The translations under genes and the position numbers were made by a program. Source: Desulfuribacillus stibiiarsenatis (GTDB lineage: Bacteria > Bacillota > Bacilli > Desulfuribacillales > Desulfuribacillaceae). From it: a stretch of DNA of 64,000 nt. Positions within the stretch are counted from its first letter, which is position 1. Each line of letters starts with the position of its first letter. This document shows positions 697 through 8,960 of this stretch, one piece after another. The stretch is taken from assembly GCF_001742305.1 (NCBI RefSeq), contig NZ_MJAT01000002.1:62001-126000 (forward strand), given 5' to 3'. Below the pieces are notes generated by a model. The model saw only the letters and a program-made list of their open reading frames with translations. It searched no databases and was not told the origin of the DNA.

Positions 697-888
697 TTAA
701 ACGTTTTTCTCGCTTCTCTTTGGTTCTGTGTCATCATCAAAATTCGTTAAGTCTCTTGTAGCACCCTTAAATTCTTTTATTGTTCTACCTGCAGCTCTTC
801 CAAGCTCAGGCAATTTATTCGGTCCAAATACGATTAAAGCAATAACTCCAATTAAAATCATTCCAGGAACACCGATGCTTGATAACAT
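697..888 (-). CDS. tatA: Twin-arginine translocase subunit TatA/TatE
   Basis: A 63-residue protein with one N-terminal transmembrane helix, the [14 protein letters not shown] hinge and amphipathic helix of TatA, and a short charged tail. TatA oligomers form the export path for folded proteins carrying twin-arginine signals. The start is set by AGGAGGTG a few bases upstream. No tatC is visible nearby. It stands alone with its own terminator, between a sensory operon and an NrfD-type gene. The window holds Tat-dependent enzymes that need such a pore, namely the molybdopterin oxidoreductase at 23.6-26.1 kb and the hydrogenase small subunit at 34.3 kb. Confidence 0.9.
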
Positions 889-982
889 GTGAACACCTCC
901 TATATATGCTTGTATACCATTATACCATACCTAATAATAAAAGTCTTTGTTTTGTATTAAATCATAACATCTTACCCTTATA

Positions 983-1633
983 TTATTCTCCGACTTTAAT
1001 AATATCATGCTCAAGAGCGTACTTCACAAGGTCGGAACGCTTTTTCGTATTCATTTTCTCCATGATATTGGATTTGTGGCTTTCCACCGTCTTAATACTT
1101 ACAAATAGCTGATCTGCGATTTCTTGTTGTGTATATCCTAAGGCAATCAGTCGCAATACATCTGCTTCACGCTTCGTTAAGGATACTTCTTGAATGGACG
1201 CCTTTTGTTTCTTATTCATCAATTGGTTTGCAACGTTTTCCTTCAATCCCTTGTATAACACAAATTCTCCTCGAGAAACGGCACGAATGGCATCTAATAA
1301 TTCTTTATCTGCTGCGCTCTTTAAAATGTAACCAGCTCCACCAATTTGCAAGACTTTGCCAATGTATTCTGCTTCATCATGCATCGTAAGGAATAAAATC
1401 TTGATATTACCATACACCGAAATGATTTCCGCTGATAAATCCATACCGTTTTTGTCTGGCAAATTGATATCCATCAAAACCACGTCTGGCTGTAATTTCG
1501 CAACTAATGCAGTCGCTTCGAAAGCAGTCCCCGCCTCACCAATGACTTCCATATCATCTTGTGAATTTAATAACATTGCCAACCCACTACGGAGAACCGT
1601 ATGGTCATCGACAACTAGAATTTTAATCGTCAT
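983..1633 (-). CDS. NarL/FixJ-family response regulator
   Basis: A 216-residue two-domain regulator. The N-terminal receiver has the acidic pair DD near residues 9-10, the phospho-acceptor Asp55 in VVLMDINLPD and Lys105 in YILKSA. The C-terminal LuxR-type helix-turn-helix (about 150-210) contains LTKREADVLRLIALGYTQQE. Its start overlaps the kinase stop by 4 nt (ATGA), so the two are translationally coupled and form a two-component pair. Such regulators commonly control anaerobic respiratory operons. The target is not known; tatA, the NrfD-type gene and the oxyanion reductase cluster are the nearest candidates. Confidence 0.9.
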   Translation of the reverse strand: MTIKILVVDDHTVLRSGLAMLLNSQDDMEVIGEAGTAFEATALVAKLQPDVVLMDINLPDKNGMDLSAEIISVYGNIKILFLTMHDEAEYIGKVLQIGGAGYILKSAADKELLDAIRAVSRGEFVLYKGLKENVANQLMNKKQKASIQEVSLTKREADVLRLIALGYTQQEIADQLFVSIKTVESHKSNIMEKMNTKKRSDLVKYALEHDIIKVGE

Positions 1634-3105
1634 AGTAGAATTTCCTCCTGGTCTTCAAACACGAGCGGTATCGAAACATAAATCGTTGTTCCTATTCCAA
1701 CTTTTGATTCAATTTCAAAATTACCATTGATAAGTTCAGCCCGTTCACGCATCCCATGAAGCCCTAGATGCGTATCATGTGTATCACTTGAATAGTGCTC
1801 GTTGACATCAAATCCTATGCCATCATCTTCGATAATAATTTGAAGCGCATCCTGTTTAAAATTCATGATAATACTCACGTTTTCTGCTTTTGAATATTTA
1901 AATATATTCGTGAGCGCTTCTTGTAAAATGCGGTAAATCGTTATTTCTAATTCTGCTAAGAGGCGTTTTTCAAAAGTATGACCATGGACGATAAAATCAA
2001 TATCTGTATGATTAAATTCCTGATATTCTTGAACTAATCGCTCGATTGCTGGTATTAAACCCATATCATCCAAAACACTAGGACGTAACTGCCTAGAAAT
2101 TCGTTTTACTTCGCCAATGGTACGAGAAATCACTTTCCTCATATTATCGACGTTTTGATCGAAGTTCTCTTGTTTGCCTACTTGTTTAATACACTGCAAT
2201 TGTACCATAAGTGCACTAAGAAGTTGACCGGTTTCATCATGTAGTTCACGACTTACACGCTTTCTTTCCATTTCTTGTGCAGTAATTACTTTTTTTAGTA
2301 AACTTTTTCTTACTTGTTCCTTTTTTTCTATTTCAGCTAATAACTGTTTATTCTCTTTTTCTTTATGCGCAAGGGTTTCCCCCATTTTATTAAATGCCTG
2401 TCCCAAATTCCCGAACTCATCATTACTTGATACTTCAACACGTTGAGTATAGTCTCCCGCAGAAAACTTATGGGTAGCTTCTACTAATCGTAGGATAGGT
2501 TGATATAAGACATTCGCAAGAATGTATGCCGCTAAGATTCCTATGATCGACATTAAAAGTGTCGTTTGAAGAATGGTAGTTGTAATCTTTTGAACAGAAA
2601 ATATCACATTTGATTGGTCTAATCCTATTCTAACAACGCCCACTTTTCCACCTAAAATTGGCATTGCAAAATCGTGAATCTTTCCCTCGCCAGTATTAAT
2701 AAGCCTACGGTTAGGATTGTCTTCAGATGTAAATGTGTTGATATAAATTAAATTAGTCGGTACACCATCCGCGAATGTATGAGCAATTACATCACCATCA
2801 TGGTTGATAACAAAGGCATACCTGACATTTCGATTATTTTTCCTAGTGTCGTTGAGCAGTTGATGGAGTATAAAAACTTGATTTGTAAGAACTAAATCGG
2901 CACTTCGTGCTGACAAGTCCCGCGAAATTGAAACACCTTGCTTATCTAACTCTTCTAGCATTAGATTCTGAACAATATTTCTCATTTCTAGGGTAACCCC
3001 TGCCCCAAGTACAAGGATAAATCCTACTGTGATACCTAAAATCTTTATCTCGAGGTTCACTGCATCTGATACGCGTGTAATCCACTTAAAAATTTTATTT
3101 AACAT
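1630..3105 (-). CDS. NarX/DegS-type sensor histidine kinase
   Basis: A membrane histidine kinase of about 491 residues. It has an N-terminal transmembrane helix (about 20-42), an extracytoplasmic sensor region of roughly 140 residues, a second helix (about 180-202), a HAMP linker, a coiled coil, a HisKA_3 dimerisation domain with the phospho-accepting His in VSRELHDETG (about residue 289) and an HATPase domain with EDDGIGFD. I chose ATG 3105, which overlaps the end of the upstream binding-protein gene; a TTG at 3114 is also possible and neither has a strong ribosome site, suggesting translational coupling. Operon order is binding protein, kinase, regulator. Confidence 0.88.
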   Translation of the reverse strand: MLNKIFKWITRVSDAVNLEIKILGITVGFILVLGAGVTLEMRNIVQNLMLEELDKQGVSISRDLSARSADLVLTNQVFILHQLLNDTRKNNRNVRYAFVINHDGDVIAHTFADGVPTNLIYINTFTSEDNPNRRLINTGEGKIHDFAMPILGGKVGVVRIGLDQSNVIFSVQKITTTILQTTLLMSIIGILAAYILANVLYQPILRLVEATHKFSAGDYTQRVEVSSNDEFGNLGQAFNKMGETLAHKEKENKQLLAEIEKKEQVRKSLLKKVITAQEMERKRVSRELHDETGQLLSALMVQLQCIKQVGKQENFDQNVDNMRKVISRTIGEVKRISRQLRPSVLDDMGLIPAIERLVQEYQEFNHTDIDFIVHGHTFEKRLLAELEITIYRILQEALTNIFKYSKAENVSIIMNFKQDALQIIIEDDGIGFDVNEHYSSDTHDTHLGLHGMRERAELINGNFEIESKVGIGTTIYVSIPLVFEDQEEILL

Positions 3106-4045
3106 TGTAATCAATCTCTGTCTTATTTAATAAGTCTCGAATATAATCGTAAGTCATATCGTCAGCCATAACGAAACGCTCAAATAATAAACTCTGCAAA
3201 GCAATTTTGCCCTTCTCATCGTTGTGCATATTTAACAATAACCTACGCAGCATTTGGAATTCTTCGTCTGATGTGTTAACCCCTACAACAACTGGCGGAT
3301 TCCCAACTTCCGGAGAAGAATGAATGATCTGTAATTGATTCGTAATTTCCGGGTATAAGAACGCATGATAATCGTATACCATATGGTCAATGCATGCAGA
3401 ATCTACTATGCCATCTAGTACTGCCTTTACCGAATTATCGTGGCTGTAGGTGTAGATAATACTGGAAAAATACTTTTCCGGCTTCTCTCCGATGTTCGCC
3501 AATTCGCCAATCATAGCGGCCCTTCCCGAGAACGACATCGGATCAGTAAATGCAAATCTCTTGCCACGCAAGTCCTCTAATGTCTCAATTCCACTATTTT
3601 TTCTTGTAATAACTATCGAACGATATACTGCACTCCCTTGTACTTGAGGGACACTAACAAGCCTAGCGCCAAAAGTTCGTTCGGCTTCGACATAGGATAA
3701 TGTACAGATAAATGCTAAGTCTACTTCGCCTTGTTCAATTAAATCATTAATTTCTCCATACGTTTTTCTCTGAACTAGTTCAACCTTCCGACCGAGCTTT
3801 TCTTCGAAATACTCTGTTAACGGACGGTATCCCTTAACAGTTTCCGTTGGTGAAATAACGGATGAAACAGCTAAACGAAACACCTCTGGGTTCGGTGTTT
3901 TTTTAACTTGCGGCTCCACTTTAGTAAAGTCAACATAAACAGCTTCTGCCTCCGTGAAATCTACACTATTATAAATGGTTGTGCCTAATAACATGAGCAC
4001 AAAAATGCACCAAAGGATAATGATATTCCGAACTTTAAGATTCAC
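3095..4045 (-). CDS. PhnD-like periplasmic oxyanion-binding protein
   Basis: About 316 residues with an N-terminal membrane anchor (IIILWCIFVLMLLGTTIY) followed by a PhnD-type substrate-binding fold, with FRLAVSSVISPTETVKGY and LRGKRFAFTDPMSFSGR typical of phosphonate/phosphite binders. The GTG at 4045 is preferred because AGAAGG lies 7 nt upstream; the longer frame from TTG 4087 has no ribosome site. No ABC permease or ATPase follows. The gene is instead fused by overlap to a kinase and regulator, as in AioX-AioS-AioR, where a PhnD-family protein presents arsenite to the kinase. I infer a ligand-sensing role for an oxyanion; the ligand is unknown. Confidence 0.8.
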   Translation of the reverse strand: MNLKVRNIIILWCIFVLMLLGTTIYNSVDFTEAEAVYVDFTKVEPQVKKTPNPEVFRLAVSSVISPTETVKGYRPLTEYFEEKLGRKVELVQRKTYGEINDLIEQGEVDLAFICTLSYVEAERTFGARLVSVPQVQGSAVYRSIVITRKNSGIETLEDLRGKRFAFTDPMSFSGRAAMIGELANIGEKPEKYFSSIIYTYSHDNSVKAVLDGIVDSACIDHMVYDYHAFLYPEITNQLQIIHSSPEVGNPPVVVGVNTSDEEFQMLRRLLLNMHNDEKGKIALQSLLFERFVMADDMTYDYIRDLLNKTEIDYNVK

Positions 4046-4151
4046 ATTCACACCTTCTTCTATAGGACATGATAGACTGAGTAACAAGTATCATTTTCAA
4101 AACCTTATATAATTATTTTAAACGATTTAATCTCAAAAGAAAACAATATGA

Positions 4152-6809: not shown

Positions 6810-6905
6810 ATGTTACCTAAACCTCGAATTGGGTGGGCACCTTGGGCGATTTGGCATGCAATTGTAATTCCTGCGCTATTCTATCTTGGATATGCATATT
6901 TGTAA
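6810..6905 (+). CDS. 31-residue membrane micro-protein, copy 1
   Basis: A tiny gene with an excellent ribosome site (GAAGGAGGTAAT) and its own terminator, encoding 31 residues that begin MLPKPRIGWAPWAIWH and continue as one hydrophobic helix. It shares the pattern P-x-IGW-x2-W-x3-H-x-I-x-IP with the 43-residue protein at 8715-8846, so the two are likely paralogues. The function is unknown to me. The quality of the ribosome site, the terminator and the second copy argue that it is a real gene. Confidence 0.75.
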   Translation: MLPKPRIGWAPWAIWHAIVIPALFYLGYAYL

Positions 6906-6928
6906 GTATTATAAAAATATTTACTTAT

Positions 6929-6963
6929 TACGACAGTGGTTTCTCGCTGTCGTATTTAATTTT
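6929..6963 (+). terminator. Terminator of the 31-residue gene
   Basis: TACGACAG (6929-6936) pairs with CTGTCGTA (6947-6954), followed by TTTAATTTTT. Confidence 0.7.
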
Positions 6964-6995
6964 TCTCATCCGAACTCCTCTTTGAGTGTTTTCTT

Positions 6996-8072
6996 TTATT
7001 TTCTCTGAATTAAAACCTTAAAAGTATCTCCCATTCCACCAGGCATAATTAGCTGCTTTATTGCATTATTCCTTTTGAAAATTGGATCAAATGGATTGCT
7101 TGAAAGATTTTGGCTCAGTTTATCCAAAATGCCATTTTGCATTAAAAACTCATGCTGTGTCTGATACGAAACTGTTTGTAACCCCTCCACCTCACCCCAC
7201 TGTATAAGCTGTGAGAAATTGACATGGCTTGTGATATCTTGCAAACCGATACGTACTAAGGTATTATCGGATACTTGATGCTTATTGTAGCATTGAAGAG
7301 TTCCCGTCATTCGTGCGGGAGCATAAATTTCATCTGCTGTATATCCATAGTCAATCGTTATTATATCTCCACCATTTAGATATTTCGCCGATTGTTGTAT
7401 CCATTGCTTTGCTTGCAGATTCACTTCTGCTTCTTGATGATTGATTAGGATAACTTTTTGTTCATTAAAAAATTCACATAATTCAATACTTGCTGCTTTT
7501 AACTGAAATTCAAACTCCCGATTCAGAGGATTATAAGTAACAAACTTTTCATGCAATTGATTATCTATCATTTGTACTATATGCACAGGAAATGCATCGA
7601 ATAACTCATTCGAAAGAATGCAACCAACAACATTATCAATCTCTTCTAGACTATTCACCCATTTTACTGGATAACCCTGCAATAACTGCTGTTGCATGTG
7701 TCGAAAGCTTTCGCTTGCATCAATGATATAGTACTGCAGACTTGCGTATAGCTCTTGTTCGTTAGAAAGCACACCCAATATTGCGTGTGCTAGTTGTCCC
7801 TTGCCTGCACCGAACTCGACAATCTTGAAGTTTTTCGGGCATTCTAAACGTTCCCAAAGTTTCTTAATATAACTTGCTATTACCTCTCCAAAGATCGGAG
7901 ATACATTCGCCGATGTATAAAAATCACCTTGTTTGCCAGTTCTTTCACGATCTGCTTGGTAATATCCAAGTTTCGGGTAATATAAACACATATCCATGAA
8001 GTCTTTAAAAGAAATTGGACCCTCTTGATTGATGCGATTTTTGATAATATGAATTAACTGCTCGTTTCCCAT
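6996..8072 (-). CDS. MidA/NDUFAF7-family methyltransferase
   Basis: A 358-residue class I SAM-dependent methyltransferase of COG1565. The N-terminal MCLYYPKLGYY region and GDFYTSANVSPIFGE are hallmarks of the MidA/NDUFAF7 family, and IVEFGAGKGQLA is the SAM-binding glycine motif. In mitochondria the relative methylates an arginine of complex I; the bacterial substrate is not established. GGCGGTG lies 9 nt before the ATG. It is a single gene, with the terminator of the upstream minus-strand gene directly before it. Confidence 0.85.
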   Translation of the reverse strand: MGNEQLIHIIKNRINQEGPISFKDFMDMCLYYPKLGYYQADRERTGKQGDFYTSANVSPIFGEVIASYIKKLWERLECPKNFKIVEFGAGKGQLAHAILGVLSNEQELYASLQYYIIDASESFRHMQQQLLQGYPVKWVNSLEEIDNVVGCILSNELFDAFPVHIVQMIDNQLHEKFVTYNPLNREFEFQLKAASIELCEFFNEQKVILINHQEAEVNLQAKQWIQQSAKYLNGGDIITIDYGYTADEIYAPARMTGTLQCYNKHQVSDNTLVRIGLQDITSHVNFSQLIQWGEVEGLQTVSYQTQHEFLMQNGILDKLSQNLSSNPFDPIFKRNNAIKQLIMPGGMGDTFKVLIQRK

Positions 8073-8127
8073 TACTTACAACACCGCCTGTGATTAAACT
8101 AACGCAGAAAATATTTGATTTGGAATT

Positions 8128-8163
8128 AAAATGGTAAACTATACCGTTATAGTTTACCATTTT
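8128..8163 (-). terminator. Strong hairpin terminator
   Basis: A perfect 16-bp inverted repeat (8128-8143 and 8148-8163) with loop CCGT, flanked by T-rich sequence. It follows the small helix-turn-helix gene that ends at 8197. Confidence 0.8.
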
Positions 8164-8196
8164 ATTATAATTGGCGGTGTGCGTAAAAGCAATTCG

Positions 8197-8457
8197 CTAG
8201 TCCCAGCCGACCATACTGTCAATGCCATATTTCTCAAAGTGATTCCTTAAATGAAATATCGTCTTCTCTGGAACGTGGAACAAGTTTGCCATTTCCTCAT
8301 CACTCATATTGAGTTTTAAACACTCGATAAATTCATCGAAATTAACTTTCACTTCCTCAGTTTTTGCTTGTAAACTTTCTTGCCAGCCCCAAGGTGCTCC
8401 TCTAGTTCCATAATCTTCTTGGCTTAAGTGGCGTTGCGATTCCTCACTATTCGTCAT
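8197..8457 (-). CDS. Small helix-turn-helix protein
   Basis: An 86-residue soluble protein. The C-terminal half (about 45-80) looks like a helix-turn-helix, with MSDEEMANLFHVPEKT then IFHLRNHFEKYG; the N-terminal half is charged and contains GAPWGWQ. The start at 8457 is fixed by AAGGAGGG 5 nt upstream; the longer frame to 8673 runs antisense through the divergent 55-residue gene. Similar short DNA-binding-like proteins are common in spore formers, but I cannot name a target. The 109-bp gap to the divergent gene at 8567 must hold both promoters. Confidence 0.65.
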   Translation of the reverse strand: MTNSEESQRHLSQEDYGTRGAPWGWQESLQAKTEEVKVNFDEFIECLKLNMSDEEMANLFHVPEKTIFHLRNHFEKYGIDSMVGWD

Positions 8458-8566
8458 ATTAACCCTCCTTAAAGCATTTGATGTAATTCTATACTTATTC
8501 TTTGCGAATTTATCTTTGGTTATGAAAATACGAAAGGGGAAAACTAAAATTCGAGGAGGTGTATTT

Positions 8567-8734
8567 ATGCCAACTAATAAACAAAAGAAAAACGGCTTAG
8601 TCCCAGAAGGCTTAGGCTCTGCAGACTTGGTTAACCTACACGTGAATAACTCAACAACAAACGCAAGAGGCAAGTCGAAGCGTCCAAAGAAGATATTGGA
8701 GGTGAATCATAACAGTGACGGAGCGAACTCATAA
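8567..8734 (+). CDS. 55-residue basic hydrophilic protein
   Basis: Encodes 55 residues starting MPTNKQKKNGLVPEGLG, rich in Lys, Asn and Ser, without cysteine or a hydrophobic segment. CGAGGAGGTG precedes the ATG at 8567. Composition and size resemble minor small acid-soluble spore proteins, but I see no diagnostic family motif, so that is speculation. Its 3' end overlaps the 43-residue membrane peptide gene by 20 nt in another frame, suggesting co-expression. Confidence 0.65.
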   Translation: MPTNKQKKNGLVPEGLGSADLVNLHVNNSTTNARGKSKRPKKILEVNHNSDGANS

Positions 8735-8846
8735 TCAAGCAGTCGGAGAAGTAAGTCCATCCATCGGTTGGGGTAGCTGGATTGTACTACATGTCATAGC
8801 GATTCCCGTTGTCGTGTTTCTAGGGAGTTTATTAACAAGGTTTTAG
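8715..8846 (+). CDS. 43-residue membrane micro-protein, copy 2
   Basis: Starts at GTG 8715, with GGAGGTG at 8698-8704 as ribosome site, and encodes 43 residues: a short polar head followed by PSIGWGSWIVLHVIAIP and one hydrophobic helix. It matches the 31-residue protein at 6810-6905 in the IGW-x2-W-x3-H-x-I-x-IP pattern. It overlaps the preceding 55-residue gene by 20 nt and ends just before a terminator. The function is unknown; a single-span accessory subunit or a spore-membrane peptide is possible. Confidence 0.7.
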   Translation: MTERTHNQAVGEVSPSIGWGSWIVLHVIAIPVVVFLGSLLTRF

Positions 8847-8854
8847 TCATTACC

Positions 8855-8878
8855 GCCCCGACTGGTTCGGGGCCTTTT
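8855..8878 (+). terminator. Terminator of the micro-protein pair
   Basis: GCCCCGA (8855-8861) pairs with TCGGGGC (8867-8873), followed by CTTTTAT. Confidence 0.75.
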
Positions 8879-8960
8879 ATATTTGCAGATTCACAATATG
8901 ATTCTTCCTAGCACAAAACCATGAAATCATGTATACTACGATTCATGGAGGTGTACAACT

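Follow-up and report, generated by a model that had tools for sequence, protein, structure and literature searches.

A family of single-helix micro-proteins in Firmicutes with similarity to cytochrome b559, and its two members in Desulfuribacillus stibiiarsenatis

The window analysed here, a stretch of 64,000 nucleotides from Desulfuribacillus stibiiarsenatis, contains two tiny genes, overlooked until now, whose products (designated P1 and P2) belong to a type of protein that no curated family model names. That these products represent a real and selected family of membrane proteins we regard as practically certain. Among proteins of known structure, the family profile matches cytochrome b559, hinting that a b559-like haem-dimer design may exist outside oxygenic photosynthesis. 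Firmicutes are not known to have photosystem II, of which b559 is a component. The explanation that fits best, to which we give about an even chance, is that P1 and P2 are the subunits of a minimal b559-like membrane cytochrome, in which the pair would form a haem dimer.

Sequence and expression signals of the two micro-genes

The translation of P1 is MLPKPRIGWAPWAIWHAIVIPALFYLGYAYL (31 aa) and that of P2 is (V/M)TERTHNQAVGEVSPSIGWGSWIVLHVIAIPVVVFLGSLLTRF (43 aa). Both include the motif P-x-IGW-x2-W-x3-H-x-I-x-IP, and the longer signatures are P-R-I-G-W-x2-W-x3-H-x4-P-x5-G in P1 and P-S-I-G-W-G-x-W-x3-H-x4-P-x5-G in P2. Written as a degenerate DNA pattern, the shared motif has exactly two matches in the window and none in 100 dinucleotide shuffles, and P1 and P2, which are ~1.8 kb apart, are the only copies in the genome of 3.12 Mb. 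The region 5' of P1 reads AAGGAGGTAATCGA-ATG and that of P2 reads GGAGGTGAATCATAACA-GTG. The positions of the genes, their expression signals and the adjoining genes are given in Table 1; the terminator of P1 may have a second use for the convergent gene at 6996-8072. Helix prediction with AlphaFold2, employing the family alignment, gave one helix for P2 at residues 19-42, with a mean pLDDT of ~94 across residues 21-40, and the single helix of P1 was assigned via the family alignment. The preliminary description of this DNA had claimed two paralogous reading frames with a shared motif, a good ribosome site and a terminator for each, and one hydrophobic helix in each product. The coordinates, translations and pattern scan agree with the first of these claims, a strong Shine-Dalgarno sequence and a folded hairpin with T-run are present at both genes, and the helix assignments bear out the last.

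Table 1. Positions of the micro-genes, their expression signals and neighbouring genes in the window.
Feature	Position	Strand	Basis
CDF (cation diffusion facilitator) exporter, divergent from P1, likewise in the sister genome	5799..6710	-	family searches
Shine-Dalgarno sequence AAGGAGGT of P1	6796..6803	+	read from sequence
P1, 31-aa single-helix micro-protein	6810..6905	+	translation, sister-genome copy, purifying selection, family alignment
Intrinsic terminator 3' of P1, hairpin and T-run	6929..6965	+	folding, -17.4 kcal/mol for the folded stretch
MidA-like SAM methyltransferase (PF02636), between P1 and P2	6996..8072	-	family search
55-aa hydrophilic ORF, overlaps the start of P2 by 20 bases	8567..8734	+	strongly conserved in the sister genome
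Shine-Dalgarno sequence GGAGGTG of P2	8698..8704	+	read from sequence; sister genome arranged alike
P2, 43-aa single-helix micro-protein, GTG start	8715..8846	+	translation, weak TIGR01333 match, PDB matches, purifying selection
Intrinsic terminator 3' of P2, hairpin and T-run	8855..8885	+	folding, -13.7 kcal/mol for the folded stretch

Coding status and selection

Both micro-genes are syntenic, 1.8 kb apart, in a sister genome that belongs to another genus and is the sole other genome found of the same GTDB family. The identity between the two genomes is 71% for P1 and 62% for P2. In P1, 16 changes fall on 21 synonymous sites and 10 on 72 nonsynonymous sites (pS 0.75; pN 0.14), and the corresponding figures for P2 are 20 changes on 28 synonymous and 18 on 89 nonsynonymous sites (pS 0.71; pN 0.20). 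The synteny, together with the concentration of changes at synonymous sites, indicates that P1 and P2 are real coding sequences. The possibility raised in the preliminary description, that the motif might have no relatives or might vary like noncoding DNA, was examined: relatives were found and purifying selection was seen.

The neighbours in the sister genome are the same, namely the CDF exporter, the MidA-type methyltransferase, a small possible helix-turn-helix protein and a DUF2614 protein. The 55-aa ORF upstream of P2 (MPTNKQKKNGLVPEGLGSADLVNLHVN...) has a good ribosome site and contains the GTG start of P2; Pfam and NCBIfam searches gave no family match for it. Based on its conservation and the 20-base overlap, P2 may be translationally coupled to this ORF. 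The complementary strand at 8197-8457 encodes a conserved 86-aa protein (MTNSEESQRHLSQEDYGTRGAPWGWQESLQ...) with weak helix-turn-helix matches, which is also present in the sister genome.

Distribution of the family

Neither P1 nor P2 matched any family in Pfam, NCBIfam or PHROGs above its cut-off. An exact-pattern scan of 84,980 species returned 20 stretches, nine of which belong to Caloramator, Thermobrachium and a Clostridiales MAG. Each of these nine has two tandem copies ~120 bases apart, with a separate ribosome site for each copy, in operons that run sense-sense. Copy A reads TPxIGWGWWLLLHIIAIPLLLY and copy B reads YTPRMGWTYWIILHLIAIPLTVYIG. By their signature residues, P1 would correspond to copy B and P2 to copy A; strict orthology was not adopted, as identities and a tree of 26 residues do not resolve it. 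Six matches in Flavobacteriales, Verrucomicrobia and Bacteroidaceae have no hydrophobic helix and were taken as chance, and a match on a viral contig, at a spot with no ribosome site or isolated small gene, was set aside. A record titled as an Acetobacteraceae MAG has a family member but was not counted as a proteobacterial occurrence, since that genome is placed in the GTDB phylum of Thermoanaerobacter and the title looks wrong.

Profile searches extended this range. In the Bacilli (398 sampled genomes) they returned the GTDB family of D. stibiiarsenatis and one doubtful match, and in the Clostridia (391 sampled genomes) the Caloramator centre genome only. The family was present in 6 of 37 genomes of the Thermoanaerobacter class, with single copies in some Thermoanaerobacter and a tandem pair in one genome, in 7 of 398 genomes of the phylum holding Thermoanaerobacter, and, as a single copy, in 14 of 200 sampled genomes of the Negativicutes, the class of a Selenomonadales MAG. 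A Bacilli micro-protein of another family (L015, positions 1507-1632 of the plus strand; MNSILFHLILVPGVFLLGYLFASIRV...) has H-x4-P-x5-G only, with no GW..W, and was left out as doubtful; it may be a further relative or a chance match. The motif and profile searches of Bacillota suggested at the outset thus yielded relatives in the Bacilli, the Clostridia, the Thermoanaerobacter class, the Negativicutes and, as described below, the heliobacteria. An alignment of 29 members has six invariant positions (P, G, W, H, P, and G), and the position -4 relative to the His is either W or F throughout. The family is sparse and patchy, yet wide in Firmicutes, and is either old and often lost or has been passed between lineages.

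Similarity to cytochrome b559

A profile built from 17 family members was compared with 177,635 PDB sequences, and the best 60 of the 67 matches were all beta or alpha subunits of cytochrome b559 (best E value 9.7e-5). A profile of four sequences from the two Bacilli genomes gave 32 beta and three alpha b559 subunits among 38 matches (best E value 4.7e-4), and a wider family profile gave b559 again; a reversed-profile control against the PDB gave no b559 (best E value 1.2). In single-sequence searches of the PDB, P2 reached PsbF at an E value of 0.005, with nearly all matches being PsbF, and P1 reached PsbF at 0.21. Comparison of the family by hhalign gave 91.3% with PsbF, 69.9% with PsbE and 0.5% with the reversed control; the PsbE and PsbF sequences used for this comparison agree with the segments seen in the PDB matches.

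Curated models of b559 place P2 below their thresholds. The match to TIGR01333 (cytochrome b559 beta) has an E value of 0.0016 and 17.9 bits against a cut-off of 61 bits, and the match to PF00283 has 11.5 bits against a cut-off of 30 bits. When 61 genomes were searched blind using the Pfam model of b559, nothing exceeded the cut-off; six of the 34 weak matches lay exactly on micro-genes, a placement which, with ~200 Mb searched, is not expected from chance scatter. The model is too short to serve as a genome-wide finder, its scores not separating from noise.

PsbF is similar in size to the micro-proteins and, like them, has one helix with W(-4), H(0), P(+5) and G(+11) and similar residues between, and the spacing of H, P and G is common to PsbE and the family. 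The tandem A-B genes in Caloramator, Thermobrachium and their relatives also recall the psbE-psbF arrangement, many other carriers being single-copy. In contrast to b559, the family has an extra invariant P-x2-G-W upstream, scores below the curated cut-offs, and includes carriers that seem unable to make haem. It also lacks Arg(-5): across the 29-member alignment this position holds S, P, W, Y, A, T or L, and where a member has an Arg it stands at -10 or -12. The topology may be opposite, as counts of C-terminal Lys and Arg suggest an outward-facing His end for the Clostridia and Negativicutes members, where that of b559 is cytoplasmic or stromal; the charges of P1 are on the N side. The haem of b559 is ligated by the His of each subunit, and its propionates are contacted by Arg19 of the beta subunit and by Arg8 and Arg18 of the alpha subunit; the cytochrome is essential for photosystem II, and its exact function is unclear (PMC4709441).

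Since the scores stay under the cut-offs, the haem-contacting Arg is missing, and the ~21 hydrophobic residues spanned by the similarity cannot separate descent from convergence, the family on present sequence criteria is not assigned to that of b559. True homology, whereby the haem-dimer module would have been free-standing in non-oxygenic bacteria and then recruited into photosystem II, seems to us rather unlikely for the Firmicute and heliobacterial micro-proteins. Within the literature searched, which left most subscription journals outside its coverage, we found neither b559 relatives outside oxygenic photosynthesis nor an earlier description of the P1/P2 family.

A relative in the heliobacteria

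Three weaker profile matches from the search of the Thermoanaerobacter phylum represent one syntenic gene of heliobacteria (e.g., MWERDKTLIHDSGFEFGHAGWFAFHAVAIPTMMYIGSVLTSRKKRRQFH), which encodes 48-49 aa and lies between an L,D-transpeptidase gene and a sulfatase/phosphodiesterase-like gene. One carrier is taken to be Heliobacterium modesticaldum; no PshA iron-sulphur signature was found in 640 kb of the chromosome of this putative carrier. Alignment of the heliobacterial form with the family gave 96%. Against the PDB, all 32 of its 32 matches were PsbF, including the best single-sequence match to PsbF, and its E value with TIGR01333 was 4e-4. The PshX subunit of the heliobacterial reaction centre (PMC7143216) resembles the family in being a 31-residue, one-helix micro-protein of Firmicutes, and heliobacteria carry both. 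However, PshX was absent from the matches of the heliobacterial relative to all PDB chains, despite a published crystal structure of the reaction centre with PshX. The heliobacterial micro-gene is not PshX.

Proposed function and haem supply

In the proposed b559-like cytochrome, each subunit would contribute one transmembrane helix with the aromatic anchor GW..W, the invariant His just inside the membrane, followed by Pro(+5) and Gly(+11). Two of these helices would pack in parallel, as A and B where the genes are paired or as two identical copies where there is a single gene, and each would give one His to a non-covalent haem b. The Pro and Gly would shape the helix crossing, and the Trp residues would form a belt at the membrane surface. 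The helix pair might then serve the cytoplasmic membrane as a redox buffer or as a carrier of one electron, which it would store or pass on. We infer dimerisation, haem ligation and electron transfer. The preliminary description took the invariant Trp and His as a sign of a specific partner; a specific function agrees with the data, but no large partner is conserved across classes, and the His may be needed for a cofactor that two helices hold between them and not for a separate partner protein. Should the proposal be true, anaerobic Firmicutes and heliobacteria would have a b559-like pair that is free-standing, a minimal natural bis-His haem dimer for study that might also serve as an outgroup in tracing the origin of b559 and as a candidate redox part of Negativicutes iron loci.

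AhbD completes haem synthesis by the siroheme-type route. It is found over the cut-off in D. stibiiarsenatis and in the sister genome (523 and 511 bits, respectively), adjoining an AhbC-like protein, and the Selenomonadales carrier has an AhbD-like match below the cut-off. No ferrochelatase was found in any carrier tested, and in the carriers from Caloramator, UBA4839 and Thermoanaerobacter neither this enzyme nor AhbD reached a convincing score. The missing enzymes are the strongest argument against a universal haem role. In those carriers, either haem is taken from outside or the helix pair has another role.

Genomic context and alternative explanations

No neighbour is conserved across classes, and a spore or respiratory operon was rejected on that ground. 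Of the membrane respiratory or spore complex first suggested for these proteins, a membrane redox role survives as the best reading; a link to spores is not supported, as neighbours vary between carriers.

In the Negativicutes, a giant P-type ATPase of ~1,600-1,740 aa is usually part of the locus; HMA_2 comes first in it, followed by a P1B and a P2A calcium-type half. The other usual members are a DUF5132 protein that weakly matches encapsulin-ferritin (EncB), a DUF1490-like protein and an MntP/YtaF protein. A 278-aa protein without assignment also belongs to this conserved locus. HMA_2 matches are present in 13 of the 14 Negativicutes carriers; an HMA_2 protein is absent from the Clostridia, Thermoanaerobacter and sister-genome carriers, and a universal link to this ATPase was therefore rejected. 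Because the micro-gene of the Negativicutes has genes for a metal P-type ATPase and a ferritin-like protein as neighbours, iron redox handling would be the leading guess for this class. Such a role is plausible. A parallel exists in ferrosomes, which pair a P-type ATPase with the haem b protein FezC (PMC10979944). The FezC/DUF4405 cytochromes are small membrane haem b proteins beside an iron-type P-type ATPase, and models of FezC bind haem via homodimerisation (PMC10979944). However, the micro-proteins do not match DUF4405, have one helix only, and are found in loci of different composition. A P1B-type ATPase with N-terminal GRxR is beside the micro-gene in Negativicutes, on a separate contig in D. 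stibiiarsenatis, and absent in the other carriers. That separate contig (contig 32, 228000-238521) holds FeoA/FeoB by a 712-aa P-type ATPase with N-terminal GRxR and several HMA_2 proteins, a ferrosome-like iron cluster which is absent from the sister genome by HMA_2 search.

The same loci could be read otherwise, with the micro-protein as a helper subunit of metal transport or iron storage that packs on a P-type ATPase or similar protein and whose His binds or passes a metal ion without haem. We consider this a possible, though improbable, role. The Negativicutes gene adjoins the HMA_2/P1B/P2A ATPase, DUF5132, DUF1490-like and MntP/YtaF genes, in both Bacilli genomes a CDF exporter gene diverges from P1, and some carriers seem to have no haem synthesis. 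A metal helper would not account for the specific match to b559, the contexts of the carriers without HMA_2 are unrelated, and the single His is the only conserved residue of the metal-ligand kind.

Convergence is easily reached by short hydrophobic helices, and one-helix proteins are common among the small subunits of membrane complexes. A cofactor-free structural or assembly helix might also be considered, in which W, H, P and G would only shape a tight helix pair at the membrane surface that stabilises a larger membrane complex and the likeness to b559 would be a convergence of packing; the lack of a neighbour conserved across classes agrees with this. We hold it to be unlikely, since the PDB gives b559 and not other one-helix subunits, the reversed control is empty, and an invariant His within a membrane helix usually serves as a ligand. 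A small hydrophobic toxin of a type I toxin-antitoxin system, which might be suspected from short single-helix ORFs with their own ribosome sites and terminators and from two paralogues 2 kb apart, is very improbable, as no toxin family was matched in Pfam, NCBIfam or PHROGs, the His, Trp, Pro and Gly are invariant across classes, the tandem operons run sense-sense, and the synteny is stable over genera.

Elsewhere in the window, on the minus strand at 697-4087, a TatA gene precedes genes for a response regulator, a histidine kinase and a phosphonate-type periplasmic binding protein. With all members but TatA assigned by eye, this looks like a sensor set for anaerobic respiration.
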